In this document: piece by piece, positions 8,814 through 31,262 of the stretch
How positions within the stretch are numbered: the first letter of the stretch is position 1
How the letters are laid out: each line of letters starts with the position of its first letter
DNA from: Herpetosiphonaceae bacterium
GTDB taxonomy: Bacteria > Chloroflexota > Chloroflexia > Chloroflexales > Kallotenuaceae
Length of the DNA stretch: 41,540 nt
Assembly: GCA_036374795.1 (NCBI GenBank)
Contig: DASUTC010000254.1
Location: 1 to 41,540, forward strand
Direction of reading: 5' to 3'
The notes under the pieces: generated by a model
The model's database searches: none
Told to the model about the DNA's origin: nothing
Seen by the model: only the letters and a program-made list of their open reading frames with translations
Translations under genes and position numbers: made by a program

Positions 8814-9839
8814 CTACGAGCGTAGCCTGATCGCCCGCTCCAAGAGATCCAGCGTCTTTTCCTGCTCCAGCAGGAGCTGTGCGGTACGAAGCGCGACCTG
8901 ATCAACGACATTCAGCCCTTCGGAGAAGCTGTGGCTGCCCAGCATACGGAGGCCGGTCCAGGAGTTGGCGACGAGCGCGACGTGCCGCCCGATCTCGGCA
9001 AGCTCGTACCAGTTGAGACGGCGTCCAGCCTCCATGAGGAAATCGGCGTGGAGCCCGGCAGCAGCCTGCGCTACCCAGGAGACGGTGTACATCTCGTCGA
9101 GGGCACGACCGCCCTCTGGCCCCAAGGCACGCTCGCACACGCCATGCAGATAGGCGGCGAGGCCAGCCATACCGGCCATGCCAGGCCCGGCGCCGGGCTC
9201 GCGGAAACGGCGCACATTGGTGGCGATGACCTCCGCGACCCATTCGCGAGTCAGCTCCGGGAAGGGGGTATTGACCTCAAGCTGTAGCCAGCGATTGGCG
9301 ATCGGCGCGCCTGCGAAGAAGAAGTCACGCTCACCTTCGATGCGATTGTCTGAGCTTCTGGCCGCCAGAAAATCGCTTACCTTAATCGGTCCTTTGTAGA
9401 TCGGTGGGGTGGAGTCGAGAACAAACACGTCGTCGGTTGCTTCGTCGAAGCCGTACATCACCAGCAGGTGGGCCGCGTGGACATCGCCAAAGGCCGGGCG
9501 GAACGGAATATAAAAATTATCCTCCGCGATAATGGCGGGCTCGCCCCGAGCGAGGACGGCTTTCAGATCCGCCAGCGCCGCCTCGCCGTCATCCGAGCGG
9601 TGCCAGGTGGAGGCGATGGGGTGGAACGGCATCATGCTTTCAGCGAGCGTTGGGCGGGGCGAGGGATAATAAAATTCTTCGCGAGTCACATCGTTGGGCT
9701 GGTGGTAAAACTCCCAGGCCGCTCCCATCGTCAGAATCGGGTCCTGGTTGTAGTAGAGCAGCACCGTGCCGATACAATCATGGAGGCAGCTACACAGGTC
9801 GTGAAACCAGAATGATATAGGCGACAGCTCAACTCTCAT
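8814..9839 (-). CDS. BtrH N-terminal-domain-like protein (candidate acyl/peptidyl transferase)
   Basis: 341 residues from ATG 9839. The N-terminus has a HDCIGT motif (Cys22) followed by tyrosine-rich residues. DVHAAHLLVMYGFD and VFVLDSTPP follow at about 140-165, giving the Cys-His-Asp layout of the BtrH_N cysteine-transferase fold. BtrH of butirosin synthesis moves an acyl group from a carrier protein to an aminoglycoside amine. The C-terminal half is helical and of unknown role. The start overlaps the preceding gene's stop by 4 bases. The frame is open to 9959, but that extension lies inside the neighbour and looks non-coding. A 119-base gap separates it from the phosphodiesterase. Family assignment is by motif and shape, so it is moderately certain; the acceptor and donor are unknown. 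Confidence 0.72.
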   Translation of the reverse strand: MRVELSPISFWFHDLCSCLHDCIGTVLLYYNQDPILTMGAAWEFYHQPNDVTREEFYYPSPRPTLAESMMPFHPIASTWHRSDDGEAALADLKAVLARGEPAIIAEDNFYIPFRPAFGDVHAAHLLVMYGFDEATDDVFVLDSTPPIYKGPIKVSDFLAARSSDNRIEGERDFFFAGAPIANRWLQLEVNTPFPELTREWVAEVIATNVRRFREPGAGPGMAGMAGLAAYLHGVCERALGPEGGRALDEMYTVSWVAQAAAGLHADFLMEAGRRLNWYELAEIGRHVALVANSWTGLRMLGSHSFSEGLNVVDQVALRTAQLLLEQEKTLDLLERAIRLRS

Positions 9840-10453
9840 TGGACCAATCCTTCCGGTGTCTTCAGCGCAGTTGCCGCGAAGATATGGATGGCGATGTTCT
9901 GTGGGAGGCGCAGCCAGGCAAGCGGCTCCTGGCGGGTTACTGGTATCCGCTGCATCCACATCACAGGCTCTTGGCCCGATTGTATATGCCGTGGGAAATG
10001 CATATGCTTGCAGCGGAACGCTTCAACCTCGCCAAATCGCTGCGGGCCACCCGGCCAGAAATCCGAGATCCGCAGCCATTCCATCTCGATCGCGCCGCTC
10101 GTAAAGTGCAGATACACGATGTCTTCGGCACGTCGTTCGCTGGCTGCCAGAATATAAACCCAATCGTAGCGATCCGATGGGAGATCCAGCCGCTCACCGG
10201 AGCACCTGATATTGTTCAAGTGGCCCGCTTCTTTGGGTGGGAACCGAAAGGGGACACCTGCCACCTCAACAATGCTGTGGCTTTCGGGCAGTTCTTCGGC
10301 AGGAAACGAGTTCTGCCATACATTGAAGGTGCCGTCGCGTAAGTTGCTGGCGTATGAGATCGAATCCCAGTTGAAGAGCCGTGCTACATCAAGCAGCACG
10401 AATGGACTCTCAGGTGGTACAGGTGGCACCCGCTTGGCTCCTTTCCGCAGCAT
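9836..10453 (-). CDS. Protein of unknown function, possible beta-sandwich, first gene of the AmCP operon
   Basis: 205 residues, no signal peptide, no transmembrane segment. Visible pattern: VLLDVARLFNWDSISYAS near the start, SFPAEELPES, VPFRFPP, NNIRCSGERLDLP, YDWVYILAASERR, VYLHFTSGAIE. This order resembles the jelly-roll domain found beside glycoside hydrolases and in some stand-alone proteins, which would make it sugar-binding, but I cannot confirm that. It is the first gene of the transcription unit; no clear Shine-Dalgarno precedes ATG 10451-10453. It overlaps the BtrH-like gene by 4 bases and is therefore very likely expressed with it. Confidence 0.7.
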   Translation of the reverse strand: MLRKGAKRVPPVPPESPFVLLDVARLFNWDSISYASNLRDGTFNVWQNSFPAEELPESHSIVEVAGVPFRFPPKEAGHLNNIRCSGERLDLPSDRYDWVYILAASERRAEDIVYLHFTSGAIEMEWLRISDFWPGGPQRFGEVEAFRCKHMHFPRHIQSGQEPVMWMQRIPVTRQEPLAWLRLPQNIAIHIFAATALKTPEGLVQ

Positions 10454-26180: not shown

Positions 26181-26199
26181 CATTGTGAAAGGACCACGC

Positions 26200-27477
26200 A
26201 TGACCGATCATCGCTTTCCCTGGACCAGCGCGCAGATCGAGGCGATTGCCGCCGCGCATCCGACGCCCTTCTACCTCTACGACGAGCGCGGGCTGCGCGA
26301 GCAGGCCAGACGGCTGCACGCCGCGTTCGCCTGGGCTCCCGGCTTCAAAGAATATTTCGCGGTCAAGGCCACGCCCAACCCGACGATCCTGCGGATTCTG
26401 CACGAGGAAGGCTGTGGCACCGATTGTAGCTCGCTGGCCGAGCTGGTGCTCTCCGAGCGTGTCGGCATTACCGGCGAAGAGATCATGTTCTCATCCAACA
26501 ACACGCCTGCGGTCGAGTTCCAAAAGGCGCGCGAGCTTGGCGCGATCATCAACCTCGACGATCTCAGCCATATCGAGTATCTGGAGCGCCACGCGGGCCT
26601 GCCGGAGCTGGTGTCGCTGCGGTACAATCCCGGCCCGCTGCGCACCGGCAATGCGATCATCGGCAATCCGATCGAGGCCAAGTTTGGCTTGACGCGGGCG
26701 CAGTTGTTCGAGGGCTATCGCGTCCTGCGCGACAAGGGCGCGACGCGCTTCGGCCTGCATACGATGGTCGTGTCGAATGAGCTGAGCCAGGATGCGCTCG
26801 TCTCCACCGCGCGAATGATGTTCGAGCTGGCGGTCGAGCTAGCCACCGCGCTGGATATTCGGGTCGAGCTGATCAATATCGGCGGCGGCATCGGCATTCC
26901 CTACCGCCCGGAGCAGCAGGCGGTCGATCTTGCGGCGCTTTCCGCCGAGATCCAGGCGGCGTATGCCGCGACGATCGGCGCGCACGGCCTCGATCCGGTA
27001 CGTCTGTGCATGGAGTGCGGGCGGATCATGACCGGTCCTTACGGCTTCCTGGTGGCGCGGGTACGGCATCTCAAGCAGACCTACAGGCGCTATGTGGGCC
27101 TGGATGCCACGATGGCCGATCTGATGCGTCCGGGGCTCTACGGCGCGTACCATCATCTGACGGTGCTCGGCAAGGAGCATCTGCCTGCGACCGAGCTATA
27201 CGATGTGACCGGCTCGCTGTGCGAGAATAACGACAAGTTTGCCGTCGATCGTCCGCTGCCGACCGTCGAGGTTGGCGATCTGGTGGCGATCCACGACGCC
27301 GGAGCGCACGGTCACTCGATGGGCTTCAACTACAACGGCAAGCTTCGCCCCGCTGAGCTGCTGATGCGGCTCGATCAGCGCGTCGCGCTGATCCGGCGGC
27401 GCGAGACGCTCGACGATTATTTTGCGACGCTGCGCTTTCCCGGCTCGGATTTCGATTCCTTACTCGATGGAGCATAG
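26200..27477 (+). CDS. Diaminopimelate-decarboxylase-like PLP enzyme (fold type III)
   Basis: 425 residues from ATG 26200 (AAAGGA 6 bases upstream). The PLP lysine is Lys56 in FAVKATPN. The glycine-rich phosphate site INIGGGIGIPY, ECGRIMTGPYG and the dimer active-site cysteine in LCENNDKFAVDRPLP are all typical of LysA-type decarboxylases, followed by HDAGAHGHSMGFNYNG. It should decarboxylate meso-diaminopimelate to lysine or a related D-configured amino acid. It is shorter-coupled to the ATP-grasp gene (3 bases) than expected for a housekeeping lysA, so a cluster-specific substrate is possible. Confidence 0.88.
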   Translation: MTDHRFPWTSAQIEAIAAAHPTPFYLYDERGLREQARRLHAAFAWAPGFKEYFAVKATPNPTILRILHEEGCGTDCSSLAELVLSERVGITGEEIMFSSNNTPAVEFQKARELGAIINLDDLSHIEYLERHAGLPELVSLRYNPGPLRTGNAIIGNPIEAKFGLTRAQLFEGYRVLRDKGATRFGLHTMVVSNELSQDALVSTARMMFELAVELATALDIRVELINIGGGIGIPYRPEQQAVDLAALSAEIQAAYAATIGAHGLDPVRLCMECGRIMTGPYGFLVARVRHLKQTYRRYVGLDATMADLMRPGLYGAYHHLTVLGKEHLPATELYDVTGSLCENNDKFAVDRPLPTVEVGDLVAIHDAGAHGHSMGFNYNGKLRPAELLMRLDQRVALIRRRETLDDYFATLRFPGSDFDSLLDGA

Positions 27478-27480
27478 GCC

Positions 27481-28497
27481 GTGAGCAAGCACCAGATCCT
27501 GATCGTCACGTCGCGGATCGATCCGCACGCCGACGCGATGATCCTGACGTTGAAAGAGCTGGGCCATACGCCGATCCGGCTCAATACCGAAGATATTCCG
27601 CTGCACACGGCGCTGAGCATGCGTCTCGACGGCGCTGATTGGCACGGGACGATCCGGCTTCAGACCAACGCGCGTGTCGCGGACATCGATCAGATCCGCT
27701 CGATCTGGTGGCGACGACCGGGTATGCTCGGTCTGCCGCCGGATCTCTCGCCTCAGGAGCGCGCATTCGCCCAGGAGGAGATCGGGCATGTGCTGTCGGG
27801 CCTGTGGGCCTCGCTCGATTGCTACTGGATGAGCTTTCCGGCCAATATTCGGCAGGCAAGCTGGAAGGTCGAGCAGCTCAAGCGGGCGGCGGCGCTCGGC
27901 TTTGAGGTGCCTCGCACGCTGATCACCAGCGATCCGGCGGCGGCACGCGCCTTCTTTGAGGAGTGCCATGGGCAGATCATCTTCAAGGTGCTCTCCGACT
28001 CGTTCCTTGGCTTGCAGGCCGCCGATCCGAGCGGCGGTCAGGCACCGCCCGCGTCGTTCAAGGGGGCGCGCACCACGCTGATCACCGCCGACAGGCTGGA
28101 TCTGCTTGATCTGGTGGCGCTCGTGCCCTGCCAGTTTCAGGAGTATATTCCCAAGCGCGTAGAGCTGCGGGTCACGGTGATCGGCGATGAGCTTTTTGCC
28201 GCCGAGATCCACTCGCAGGCGCATGAAAAAACCAGAGTCGACTGGCGCAACTACGATGTGACCATCCCCTACCATAAAGCCACGCTGCCGCCCGATGTTG
28301 CCGATCGCTGCATGACCTTTGTGCGCAGCTACGGGCTGAACTACAGCGCGCTGGATCTGATCGTGACGCCCGATGGACGCTATGTATTTATCGAAAATAA
28401 TCCCAACGGACAGTTTATGTTTGTCGAGGAGCTGGTGCCCGAACTCAAGCTGCGGGCTCATCTGGCGGCCTGTTTGATCCGAGGCGCGAACAGCTAG
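27481..28497 (+). CDS. MvdC/MvdD-like ATP-grasp ligase (graspetide maturase type)
   Basis: 338 residues from GTG 27481, 3 bases after the decarboxylase stop, with GGAG upstream. The N-terminus ILIVTSRIDPHADAM, the SIWWRRP motif (74-80), FQEYIPKRVELRVTVIGD, VDWRNYD and the C-terminal ATP/metal segment DGRYVFIENNPNGQF follow the microviridin-type ligase pattern (MvdD family). In that family the enzyme activates Asp/Glu side chains of a precursor peptide with ATP and links them to Thr/Ser hydroxyls or Lys amines. The nearest candidate substrate is the Thr/Asp-rich repeat peptide encoded on the opposite strand at 28736-29077. An unrelated amino-acid ligase role remains possible. Confidence 0.85.
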   Translation: MSKHQILIVTSRIDPHADAMILTLKELGHTPIRLNTEDIPLHTALSMRLDGADWHGTIRLQTNARVADIDQIRSIWWRRPGMLGLPPDLSPQERAFAQEEIGHVLSGLWASLDCYWMSFPANIRQASWKVEQLKRAAALGFEVPRTLITSDPAAARAFFEECHGQIIFKVLSDSFLGLQAADPSGGQAPPASFKGARTTLITADRLDLLDLVALVPCQFQEYIPKRVELRVTVIGDELFAAEIHSQAHEKTRVDWRNYDVTIPYHKATLPPDVADRCMTFVRSYGLNYSALDLIVTPDGRYVFIENNPNGQFMFVEELVPELKLRAHLAACLIRGANS

Positions 28498-28608
28498 CGC
28501 CGGGCGGGACGGAGGTAAAAGAACCAGGAACCGAGCGCCACGCGCTAGAGCAGAGATCTCGAAACCTGGAACTCGAAACGCAACGCTCCACGCGCGCGAC
28601 AACGATAA

Positions 28609-28637
28609 ACCAGGGCCGGATTGCGTCCGGCCCTGGT
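28609..28637 (+). terminator. Strong stem-loop after ATP-grasp gene
   Basis: A perfect 12-bp stem (ACCAGGGCCGGA at 28609-28620, complement at 28626-28637) with a 5-base loop. It lies between the convergent ATP-grasp and repeat-peptide genes. No T-run follows on the plus strand; it probably insulates both transcripts. Confidence 0.65.
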
Positions 28638-28735
28638 CGTGTGTGAAGCGCGATCGGCTTCACTATCTTTCTGATAGAGGTGTTTCAATAAATACAATAG
28701 CTTTAATCTACACTCGATTTAGCAAGCGCGGCGTA

Positions 28736-29077
28736 TTAGCCCAACCCATCCTGTCCATAGCCGTCGGTCATCGTGCCATAGCCGTCGGTCATCGTGCCGT
28801 AGCCGTCGGTCATCGTGCCATAGCCGTCGGTATTCATGCCGTAGCCGTCGGTCATCGTGCCATAGCCGTCGGTATTCGTCGTGTAGCCGTTACCGATGTT
28901 CTTCAGCTTGTAGCCGCTTGAGCAGGCATACGCCTTGTGGTCGGTGTTGGTGGCAGCCAATGCTTGCCCGTTGTCAACCCAGACCTGCTCCTGAGCGTCG
29001 TAGTGGGCGTCGGCGGCATCGATCTCTGCGTCGGGCAGATCCTGTGCGATGTTGAAGGCGAGCAGTTTGCTGTTCAT
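28736..29077 (-). CDS. Thr/Asp/Gly/Tyr repeat peptide, candidate graspetide precursor
   Basis: 113 residues from ATG 29077, with AGGAG 8 bases upstream. The first 60 residues are a non-repetitive, acidic leader-like region (MNSKLLAFNIAQDLPDAE..., DAQEQVWVDNGQAL) ending in ACSSGYKLKN. The rest is six near-identical heptads (TNTDGYG, TMTDGYG, MNTDGYG, TMTDGYG three times) and a QDGLG tail. Each heptad has Thr donors and one Asp acceptor, which is what an omega-ester-forming ATP-grasp ligase needs. There is no signal peptide, transmembrane segment or known domain. The gene faces an MvdD-like ligase 240 bases away. The precursor role is an inference; a structural repeat protein is the alternative. 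Confidence 0.75.
   Translation of the reverse strand: MNSKLLAFNIAQDLPDAEIDAADAHYDAQEQVWVDNGQALAATNTDHKAYACSSGYKLKNIGNGYTTNTDGYGTMTDGYGMNTDGYGTMTDGYGTMTDGYGTMTDGYGQDGLG
28761..28886. repeat. Six tandem 21-bp units encoding the TDGYG heptads
   Basis: Units start at 28761, 28782, 28803, 28824, 28845 and 28866, each beginning CCGTCGGT on the plus strand. Units 1, 3 and 5 are identical, unit 2 differs by one base, and units 4 and 6 carry changes in the middle. The spacing keeps the minus-strand reading frame exactly. It is a coding tandem repeat, not a CRISPR array, because there are no spacers. Confidence 0.9.
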
Positions 29078-30038
29078 GTGGTGTGCTCCTGTGGTGTGCC
29101 CGCTGTGTTAGATAGGGCACATAAATGCCGGTGACAACAGCCGAGTGTTGCTTGGAATCAAGCAGCACCTTCTTGCAGTGAATGTTTGAGCTAGAGGGGT
29201 CACTCCTTTGGTTCACGCCAGCCGTGTGCCTTATGACGACGCGAATGAGCACAAAGGATCGCACGTGGGAGGATCGTGTGCTATGGGGCTTGTTGCGTCG
29301 TGTCCTCCTTTCAATAGAGATCTTGACATTGTCACTCTACTATAGATGTTAGTGTTCGTCAATACTCCTTGTGAGGATGTTACGCATACGTCAAGGCGAA
29401 GAAAGAGAGAAGAAAGATGATTACTCTGCTCTGCTCCTCCTGCGCTCGCTGCGCTCGCTCTTCTTTGTTTTCCACCCTGGCGACGCTGCGCTTGACAATA
29501 GTACGAGTGCATGTCATGATCTGTGCGTTCGTGGGCGCTCGAACGCCTCGCAGCAGCTCGCCGGTCCGGCTATCCGAAGCATCCGCGCTCGCCCTAGAGC
29601 GGCGCTGCTGATATCCGCAAGCTCGGTTCAAGGAGCACAGCAAAACCTGCTGTCGGTTAAGCCAGCGTCTGTTGGCGGTCGTGGAGCACCGATGCGCGCG
29701 ACCGACATAACCGCTACGTCCAGCCGGGCGATCACTGGGTCCGTCTCACCTTCATCGATCTGCAACCCGCGCTCTCGCCACTCGCAGCCATCCGCCCCTG
29801 GATCGGCTGGAGTCTTCTGTCCGCTGGATCGCATCGTCGTTCGTCGAGCGCTGGGGTAGCGCACCGGCGACATCTCGGCTCCGATCAAGGCAACCGATCC
29901 AATCACGACTGTGCTGAAGCTTCGAGCAGCGCCCGGTCGATCGTGTGTGGAGCAGGCACGATTCTGATCGCGTCGATCCGCAAGCCCGGTGGTGGTTGCC
30001 CGCGCCACGAGCCAGCGTCAATGGCCCAAGGAGGATCT
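29078..30038. other. Long intergenic region upstream of two divergent genes
   Basis: About 960 bases with no convincing gene. It contains the candidate minus-strand promoter at 29334-29362 and the palindrome at 29324-29334. Open frames on both strands (for example minus 29231-29512 and plus 29371-29859) have unlikely composition and poor ribosome-binding sites. GC content drops around 29290-29380, consistent with a promoter. I see no tRNA or other RNA gene in it. Confidence 0.5.
29334..29362 (-). promoter_or_regulatory. Candidate promoter for the repeat-peptide gene
   Basis: On the minus strand TTGACG (29357-29362) and TAGAGT (29334-29339) are spaced by 17 bases, a reasonable sigma70-type match. 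An 11-base palindrome, TGACATTGTCA at 29324-29334, touches the -10 element and would cover the start site, as an operator might. The predicted untranslated leader would be about 250 bases, which is long, so another promoter closer to 29077 is possible. Confidence 0.35.
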
Positions 30039-31262
30039 ATGAGTAGGCACACGCAGGCCCGGATGTTCCAAGCGATTGCAGTGATCGCCATGATTGCGAC
30101 GCTGCTAACCGGCTTGCAGGCACGCCGCATGTCGGCCAGTCCCCTCGCCCAAAACCAGGGCCAGGTTTCGATCTCGTGCGATTATTTCAGCCCGACCGAT
30201 ATTGCGTACGCCATTAGCCTGGAGCAGCGCCCAGGCGGCGCTCCCACGGTCACGGTTGTGCTCACGCTGGTCGACGGCAGCGAGGAGACGCAAACGTTTA
30301 CCGGCAACAGCGCCAGCTATCGCGGGCCGTACGTCAAGGTGCGCGTGTTTGCCACGTGGCCTGACGGCACCACCGGCTATGCCGAGGCGACCTGCGGCCA
30401 GATCTTGCCGACGCCGACATCGACGCCCACCGCCAGCCCGACACGCACCCCCGGCCCGACGCGCACCCCCGGCCCGACGCGCACCCCCGGCCCGACACGC
30501 ACCCCCGGCCCGACACGCACCCCCGGCCCGACGCGCACGCCAACCTCAACCAGCACGTCCAGCCCCACGCCAACGCCGCTGACCAGTGGCCGCATTTCGA
30601 TCACCTGCGACTATTTCGGACCGCGCGATCGGCGGTTTACGGTGAGGCTTGAGGAGCGTCCCGGTGGCCCGCCATCAGGCATCGCCGTGCTCGGCCTGGT
30701 CGATGGAGGAACCGAGACGCGCAGCTTCAACGAGAACACGGTGACGTTCCGGGGGCCATACGCTACGCTGCAAGTGACGGCTATCTGGCCCGACGGCGCG
30801 AGGGGCTCGGCATCGGCGACCTGTGGCCTGGTGCCGCCGACATCGACGCCCACCGCGACGAGCACGCCGACCACGCCGCCAATTACGGCGACGCCGACGA
30901 CGCCGATCGATGAGGAGACACCGACCGCCACGCCGACAACGCCGATCGATGAGGAGACACCGACCCCGACCGAGATTACTCCGCCGCCTACCCAGCCTGC
31001 GCCGACGCCGACGACACCGGCTCCGGCCAGCACGGCCACTCCTGGCCGCTCCCAGGCGGTCGCGGGTGCCAGCGGCGACGCCGAGCAGCAGGCGACGCGC
31101 CGACGGTCGGTTGCGGGTGCCAGCAGCGACAATCAGGTGCTTCCGGCGGTGGGCATGGACCATCCCGCTGCAACCTGGTGGCTGCTGCTCGCCGCCGGGT
31201 GGCTGCTGGTAGCCCTTGGCTCCGCCCTGCGCGCATGGCAGCTTGTGCGCGAGCAGGAGTAG
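30039..31262 (+). CDS. TP-rich surface protein with duplicated domain and LPxxG-like C-terminal anchor
   Basis: 407 residues from ATG 30039 (AAGGAGG just upstream). A signal peptide or N-terminal hydrophobic segment spans about 10-35. Two homologous domains of about 80 residues follow, beginning QVSISCDYF and RISITCDYF. Each has one early and one late cysteine (ATCG), ERPGG or QRPGG, LVDG, RGPY and WPDG. They are separated by a Thr-Pro linker with five PTRTPG repeats and followed by a second TP-rich stretch with two TTPIDEETPT units. The C-terminus has LPAVG, a hydrophobic helix (WWLLLAAGWLLVALG) and a charged tail, the layout of a sortase-type sorting signal, though LPAVG departs from LPxTG. 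Function unknown; probably cell-surface adhesion or display. Confidence 0.85.
   Translation: MSRHTQARMFQAIAVIAMIATLLTGLQARRMSASPLAQNQGQVSISCDYFSPTDIAYAISLEQRPGGAPTVTVVLTLVDGSEETQTFTGNSASYRGPYVKVRVFATWPDGTTGYAEATCGQILPTPTSTPTASPTRTPGPTRTPGPTRTPGPTRTPGPTRTPGPTRTPTSTSTSSPTPTPLTSGRISITCDYFGPRDRRFTVRLEERPGGPPSGIAVLGLVDGGTETRSFNENTVTFRGPYATLQVTAIWPDGARGSASATCGLVPPTSTPTATSTPTTPPITATPTTPIDEETPTATPTTPIDEETPTPTEITPPPTQPAPTPTTPAPASTATPGRSQAVAGASGDAEQQATRRRSVAGASSDNQVLPAVGMDHPAATWWLLLAAGWLLVALGSALRAWQLVREQE
30438..30527. repeat. Five tandem 18-bp units encoding PTRTPG
   Basis: Five consecutive 18-base units (CCGACRCGCACCCCCGGC) starting at 30438, 30456, 30474, 30492 and 30510, with a degenerate sixth to about 30540. 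They are in frame within the surface protein linker and likely to vary in copy number by slippage. Confidence 0.9.

Follow-up and report, generated by a model that had tools for sequence, protein, structure and literature searches.

Organization of the locus

We analysed a 41,540-nucleotide stretch of DNA, here called the window, from Herpetosiphonaceae bacterium (Chloroflexota; Kallotenuaceae; assembly GCA_036374795.1, contig DASUTC010000254.1, positions 1-41,540 of the forward strand), in which the gene for an ATP-grasp peptide ligase faces a small gene for a repeat-bearing peptide. On sequence comparison the pair is a well-supported candidate for a graspetide with an undescribed core. An earlier note, made from the DNA alone, had described an ATP-grasp open reading frame (ORF) and, some 240 bases away on the opposite strand, a 113-residue peptide; both ORFs are present, and they converge with 238 bases between them. 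The features that carry the argument are as follows.

27481-28497, + strand: ATP-grasp peptide ligase of the graspetide synthetase type, 338 residues, GTG start (family models, PDB matches, fold, catalytic residues)
28736-29077, - strand: precursor peptide, 113 residues, ATG start, with a leader and a TDGYG-repeat core (ORF; leader homology to precursors beside related ligases)
28928-29077, - strand: leader region, residues 1-50, motif LLAFN..AQ......YDAQEQVW (15-row leader alignment; genome-wide leader matches)
28919-28924, - strand: Cys52-Ser53, the conserved Cys-Ser/Thr core start (Ser/Thr after the first Cys in 23/23 relatives' cores)
28754-28879, - strand: TDGYG heptad array, six units (residues 67-108), where modification is presumed (translated ORF, Tandem Repeats Finder)

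Graspetide cores carry Thr, Ser or Lys together with Asp or Glu in a recurring arrangement. Translation of the precursor bears this out, with six heptads that each hold Thr and Asp, as the earlier note had read them: TNTDGYG, TMTDGYG, MNTDGYG, TMTDGYG, TMTDGYG and TMTDGYG, followed by QDGLG. The Thr3-Asp4 pair is present in all six and Thr1 in five, being replaced in heptad 3, while a nucleophile-acid pair is also conserved in relatives. Tandem Repeats Finder delimits a 21/42-bp array at 28747-28890 with an 88-92% match. The core has a single Cys, Cys52, with no second Cys, and its acids sit in the heptads. An AGGAG lies a few bases 5' of the precursor ATG, and we take the ORF to be a real gene, because its leader is conserved and a sister species has an ortholog whose upstream DNA is conserved too.

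The heptad DNA pattern is found in no other genome among 400 Chloroflexota genomes and in none of the viral contigs searched, and a tblastn search of plasmids with the peptide gave no match. Neither NCBIfam nor Pfam has a family for the precursor; PF14404 gives weak, sub-threshold matches for two relatives' precursors only.

The ligase belongs to the microviridin-macrocyclase family and keeps its catalytic residues

Among NCBIfam models, the window ligase scores best against TIGR04187 (255.5 bits, E 6e-76), ahead of MvdD/TIGR04184 (212 bits, 1e-62) and MvdC (179 bits), all three scores lying below the curated cut-offs of 350, 475 and 425 bits, respectively. The enzyme carries the MvdD pre-ATP-grasp domain PF21068 and weakly matches rimK_fam. 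Its nearest PDB sequences are MdnB (5ig8, 2e-44) and CdnC (7mgv, 5e-41), with MdnC, AMdnB and PruB also matched and PsnB a distant match (7drm, E 1e-11). An AlphaFold model (predicted local distance difference test score 91.7) finds its best PDB fold matches in MdnC with bound precursor, AMdnB and CdnC, with RimK-like enzymes behind. The description of the enzyme as MvdD-like thus holds only in the broad sense, because TIGR04187 outscores MvdD and both fall short of their cut-offs.

The catalytic residues K169, E228, R230, D292, E305 and N307 are intact, and the enzyme belongs to the microviridin-macrocyclase family of ATP-grasp ligases. An alignment of 28 rows shows no variation at Lys169, Arg230, Asp292, Glu305 and Asn307. 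Of the 21 members of the clade described below, 19 keep Lys169, Glu228, Arg230, Asp292 and Glu305, the exceptions being the ligases of loci L023 and L082, which have lost catalytic residues.

Ligase and leader occur together

The leader-like half that had been noticed in the peptide proves to have a family. Residues 1 to ~45 match the leaders of precursors beside related ligases, a family with the pattern LFAF...YDxxxQxW that occurs next to ligases in some 20 other bacteria of the Chloroflexota, Actinomycetota and Proteobacteria. Its invariant residues in a 15-row alignment, Tyr26, Gln31 and Trp33, are all kept in the window peptide. Small peptides beside two close ligase relatives share their first ~45 residues with the window peptide and have wholly different cores.

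Close relatives of the ligase are present in few genomes of the window's order. Among 82 genomes of that order, the leader profile matches at E < 1e-5 in G000, G055 and G056 only, and the ligase matches at E < 1e-60 fall in the same three. A broader leader profile run over 400 Chloroflexota genomes yields three matches, all in ligase-bearing genomes; one lies in G000, and the other two agree in position and ORF length with loci L062 and L082. Leader-bearing peptides were thus seen only in genomes with a clade ligase, and the repeat peptide does not turn up widely in the absence of an ATP-grasp gene.

Scanning contigs from 84,980 species with the ligase alignment gave 80 loci. LFAF peptides adjoin the ligase in Ktedonosporobacter, Anaerolineae, Nonomuraea, Ardenticatenaceae, Acidothermaceae, Nocardiopsaceae, Kangiella, Bowmanella, Massilia (six copies), Rheinheimera and a Ktedonobacteraceae metagenome-assembled genome, and diverged LFAF leaders lie beside the ligases of Pseudoalteromonas and Aestuariibacter; none were found beside the more distant Nocardia-type ligases. 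In the ligase tree, the window enzyme falls inside a 21-row clade (support 97/96) that we name the LFAF clade. This search for homologous ligase-precursor pairs placed LFAF-leader peptides beside the ligase in 17 of the 21 rows, and diverged leader equivalents were later seen at two gammaproteobacterial rows outside those 17.

A single clade ligase and a single leader-bearing peptide are present in the window genome; they are therefore each other's only obvious partners, and the short precursor with its conserved leader lies near the ligase. Leader family, phylogenetic co-occurrence, intact catalytic residues and microviridin-ligase fold all uphold the proposal of a graspetide-type cognate pair, and from these comparisons ligase and peptide very likely work together.

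Cores and operons of the LFAF clade

The clade operon comprises one or more precursors, the ligase, an SDH-type ClpP-like protease (PF01972), MauE (PF07291), a TlpA/redoxin protein and an ATP-binding cassette (ABC) transporter. Relatives' cores contain Cys, and in 23 of 23 the residue behind the first Cys is Ser or Thr. Among cores from Chloroflexota and Actinomycetota, 9 of 11 have Asp directly behind the last Cys, all 12 proteobacterial cores end in [DE]xGxxC, and an acid lies at or near the last Cys in 21 of 23 overall. In shuffled sequences, Ser/Thr behind the first Cys would be expected in about 4 of 23 and an acid behind the last in 0.7 of 11. These figures overstate independence, because we saw the rule before testing it and several of the cores are paralogous, a point that counts against our reading even though the effect is still large. 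The conserved nucleophile-acid pair spans i+10 to i+38. From sequence, we predict that the pattern is the signature of one Ser/Thr-Asp/Glu ester clamp on a probably disulfide-bonded peptide.

Both ligases whose catalytic motifs are broken, those of L023 and L082, adjoin cores that break the full rule. In L067 (Ardenticatenaceae) the core is free of Cys, and the cluster has SDH and ABC genes with neither MauE nor TlpA, in line with redox genes that serve disulfides.

In G056 (L023:15801-17160 and 9587-9895), four leader-bearing Cys-rich precursors lie beside a ligase whose catalytic Lys, Arg and Asp residues are lost; it may be a pseudoenzyme or act as a partner protein. In Massilia (L072:5914-7932), six tandem paralogous precursors differ in their cores and keep the common frame AGC(S/T)...(D/E)xGxxC.

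The window agrees with the clade in its ligase, its LFAF-like leader start with Tyr, Gln and Trp, and its Cys52-Ser53. It departs from the clade in having no acid beside or near its last Cys, and no SDH protease, MauE, TlpA or ABC transporter of the clade operon in the neighbourhood of its ligase.

A sister-species locus without the ligase

In a sister species (genome G055, locus L060), an orthologous precursor (75% identity over upstream and leader DNA) lies beside an orthologous decarboxylase (80%), and the ligase is gone from between them. The L060 core reads ...KAYASSSLSNNGRRANVDGYIMDGYDRSDMS, with two broken DGY units, no Thr and Cys changed to Ser, and the leader has lost its invariant Trp. 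Over the first 32 codons, the window and L060 precursors differ by 8 nonsynonymous and 2 synonymous changes, as compared with 73 and 120 in the decarboxylase, an excess of nonsynonymous differences in the precursor. These changes fit decay of a substrate upon loss of the local ligase, so far as sequences can tell, and the window, with ligase and repeats, against L060, with neither, makes a clean evolutionary contrast. Elsewhere in the sister species (L019:3140-7336), a nonribosomal peptide synthetase gene adjoins a ligase and ABC transporter.

A model for the two-gene system and its alternatives

We consider it probable, from sequence comparison, that ligase and peptide form a minimal two-gene graspetide system derived from the LFAF clade. 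The ligase would recognise the leader (LLAFN...YDAQEQVW) of the 113-residue peptide, phosphorylate Asp side chains of the core and link these by omega-ester bonds to hydroxyls of Thr or Ser; the heptad Asp residues would most likely serve as acceptors, and the heptad Thr, Ser53 beside Cys52, or both as donors. In the wider LFAF clade, one Ser/Thr-Asp/Glu ester is predicted to close a Cys-containing core whose disulfides would form with the aid of MauE and TlpA. In the window genome, a repeat with a single Cys would have taken the place of such a core, and disulfide, protease and export genes would have been lost or be supplied in trans. Leader homology, ligase clade, catalytic residues, the core rule of relatives and the missing repeats at the locus without its ligase are seen directly in the sequences; leader binding, ester chemistry, ring number and connectivity, leader removal, export and any biological role are inferred.

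Since Thr3 and Asp4 are adjacent, a ring inside one heptad needs Thr1 (i+3). An i+3 span is known from the Ser-Glu ester of microviridins. Thr3, for its part, could span i+8 to the Asp of the following heptad. By the habit of the clade, a single wide ring would rather be expected, running from Ser53 to one of the heptad Asp residues (i+17 in the case of the first, Asp70). We advance only tentatively the fuller scenario in which the LFAF clade is an undescribed group that combines an ester with disulfides, and the window is an offshoot with about one ester per heptad, up to six near-identical rings, and no disulfide partner genes. The earlier proposal of one small ester ring in every heptad goes beyond the evidence; relatives' cores point to a single wide Ser/Thr-acid clamp, and Cys52-Ser53 is retained.

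Several observations weigh against the two-gene reading. Ligase and precursor converge and so are not co-transcribed. The window genome has no homologue of SDH or MauE, and the clade transporter and protease are not nearby. The heptad units are nearly identical in DNA and hence the array is young, a product of recent duplications; therefore its uniformity alone is no sign of selection, and selection on its Thr and Asp is not proven. Adjacent Thr3 and Asp4 allow no sensible ring between them, and heptad 3 lacks Thr1. The sister locus is one case from an 80%-complete assembly, and G055 has two other clade ligases, on other contigs, with Cys-rich precursors elsewhere.

The strongest of the alternatives, a serious rival though we think it less likely than not, has one or a few wide esters joining Ser53 to a single heptad Asp, with the heptads as a repeated display or spacer and not each cyclised. 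Relatives keep exactly one nucleophile-acid pair, at i+10 to i+38, a range that includes the i+17 of Ser53-Asp70, and the core of locus L022 likewise begins ACT and ends TLDGNPTDGFVD. Against this, Thr and Asp are both supplied by every heptad, and in the sister species the heptad Thr residues disappeared along with the ligase. Graspetides with several cores, each repeat bearing one ring set, are known in plesiocin, thuringinin and corallotide (PMC12291112, PMC13097080).

It is improbable that the heptads go unmodified, the peptide being a former precursor whose Gly/Tyr/Asp-rich repeat has another role (structural, surface or metal-binding) or part of a decaying locus, and the ligase having another substrate or none. 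The recent DNA-level duplication, the missing export, protease and redox genes, and the decay already under way in the sister species would all suit such a history, which has to contend with the retention of leader Tyr26, Gln31 and Trp33 and of every catalytic residue of the ligase, and with a genome whose single leader-bearing peptide and single clade ligase are the only obvious partners. That the ligase appends amino acids to the peptide, in the manner of RimK or PGM1, is very improbable: RimK-type ligases are its next fold neighbours and rimK_fam matches weakly, but sequence and fold are much closer to the macrocyclases MdnB/C, CdnC and AMdnB, and relatives' cores conserve a nucleophile-acid pair.

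Transcription signals and neighbouring genes

Two further features bear on expression of the two genes.

28611-28640, no strand assigned: strong hairpin between the convergent genes (fold z-score -5.4 over 28600-28680)
29334-29362, - strand: promoter-like site TTGACG-17-TAGAGT, ~260 bases upstream of the precursor start (consensus match only)

The hairpin likely separates the transcripts of ligase and precursor. The blocks TTGACG and CTATAGTA of the promoter region also occur in the sister-species locus, for which the same scan reports no promoter-like site. Ahead of the precursor lies a long 5' region (29078-29340, - strand) that is conserved in part; within it, a 22-base block (29202-29223) is identical in the sister species. 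Exact copies of this block are found at the window locus and its ortholog only, and otherwise it is absent from the genus, so no wider 5' element emerges. A riboswitch had been suspected here; an Rfam scan of the precursor region and related loci returned nothing above chance.

Three bases upstream of the ligase lies a LysA-like pyridoxal phosphate-dependent decarboxylase gene (26185-27477, + strand), a genus-conserved paralogue with 74-81% identity in the sister species; a second, more distant lysA-like gene is found elsewhere in the window genome. This decarboxylase and a dehydrogenase, likewise upstream of the ligase, were weighed as possible tailoring enzymes; the decarboxylase, which is also present in genomes without a clade ligase, was discarded. 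Near the locus, an 18-bp tandem repeat (30421-30538, + strand) encodes TRTPGP repeats in a secreted-looking protein (29943-31262).

Comparison with known graspetide systems

The microviridin and chryseoviridin ligases MdnB, MdnC, AMdnB and CdnC resemble the window ligase in fold, pre-ATP-grasp domain and catalytic residues, at ~26-28% identity over the whole length, and leader-guided ester formation is assumed likewise for the window pair. Unlike microviridins (group 1), the window leader has no PFFARFL and its core no TxKYPSDxx(E/D), and with MvdC and MvdD scores below cut-off the system falls outside that group. TIGR04187 (SAV_5884-type) is the best NCBIfam model for the ligase, yet the score stays under 350 bits and does not place it in that subfamily.

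Repeat cores have precedents. Plesiocin and thuringinin are repeat-core graspetides (PMC12291112) that, like the window, have several Thr-plus-acid core repeats behind one leader, whereas PsnB only distantly matches our ligase. Corallotide (group 15) has a large precursor with five repeated one-ring KxxxD lactam motifs, the TIGR04187 ligase CorB, a 2-oxoglutarate oxygenase and a beta-lactamase-like gene (PMC13097080). It shares with the window a large repeat precursor and a ligase that matches TIGR04187, in the window below the family cut-off; the window repeat, in contrast, is TDGYG without Lys, and no oxygenase was matched among the neighbouring genes scanned, which sets it apart from that group. 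Nor does the window show the partner gene of graspimiditides (group 13): no TIGR04188-type isoaspartyl methyltransferase is found among the neighbouring genes scanned, the genome at large not having been searched.

The earlier note knew of no described core of TxTDGYG form, and a TDGYG core is likewise missing from the literature and databases that we searched. For the TDGYG repeats and the LFAF leader (KLFAFK), nothing relevant appears in the literature covered, which takes in the main text of the large graspetide surveys (PMC8939145, PMC13097080). The main text of the Makarova survey names neither SDH nor MauE among common partners (PMC8939145). Part of the LFAF clade may already stand unlabelled in a numbered graspetide group, such as group 9, in which a serine proteinase is said to occur in more than half of the members. 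In Streptomyces, decRiPPter reported MauE-containing candidate families (one with MauD) whose precursors hold at least 8 Cys, and a separate large group with ATP-grasp genes (PMC7794033). The MauE/MauD candidates resemble the LFAF-clade operon and were reported without the ligase-leader-core rule (PMC7794033); the window differs from them in having neither MauE nor a Cys-rich core.

Set beside these systems, the window offers a directly testable candidate two-gene graspetide system with an unreported repeat core. The clade around it joins ligase and leader across three phyla, and its Cys-Ser/Thr start with an acid at or near the last Cys predicts the position of an ester in probably disulfide-bonded peptides. 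If each heptad is cyclised, the repeat array would be an encoded route to multi-ring peptides, which would make it relevant to peptide engineering and to the study of enzyme promiscuity.
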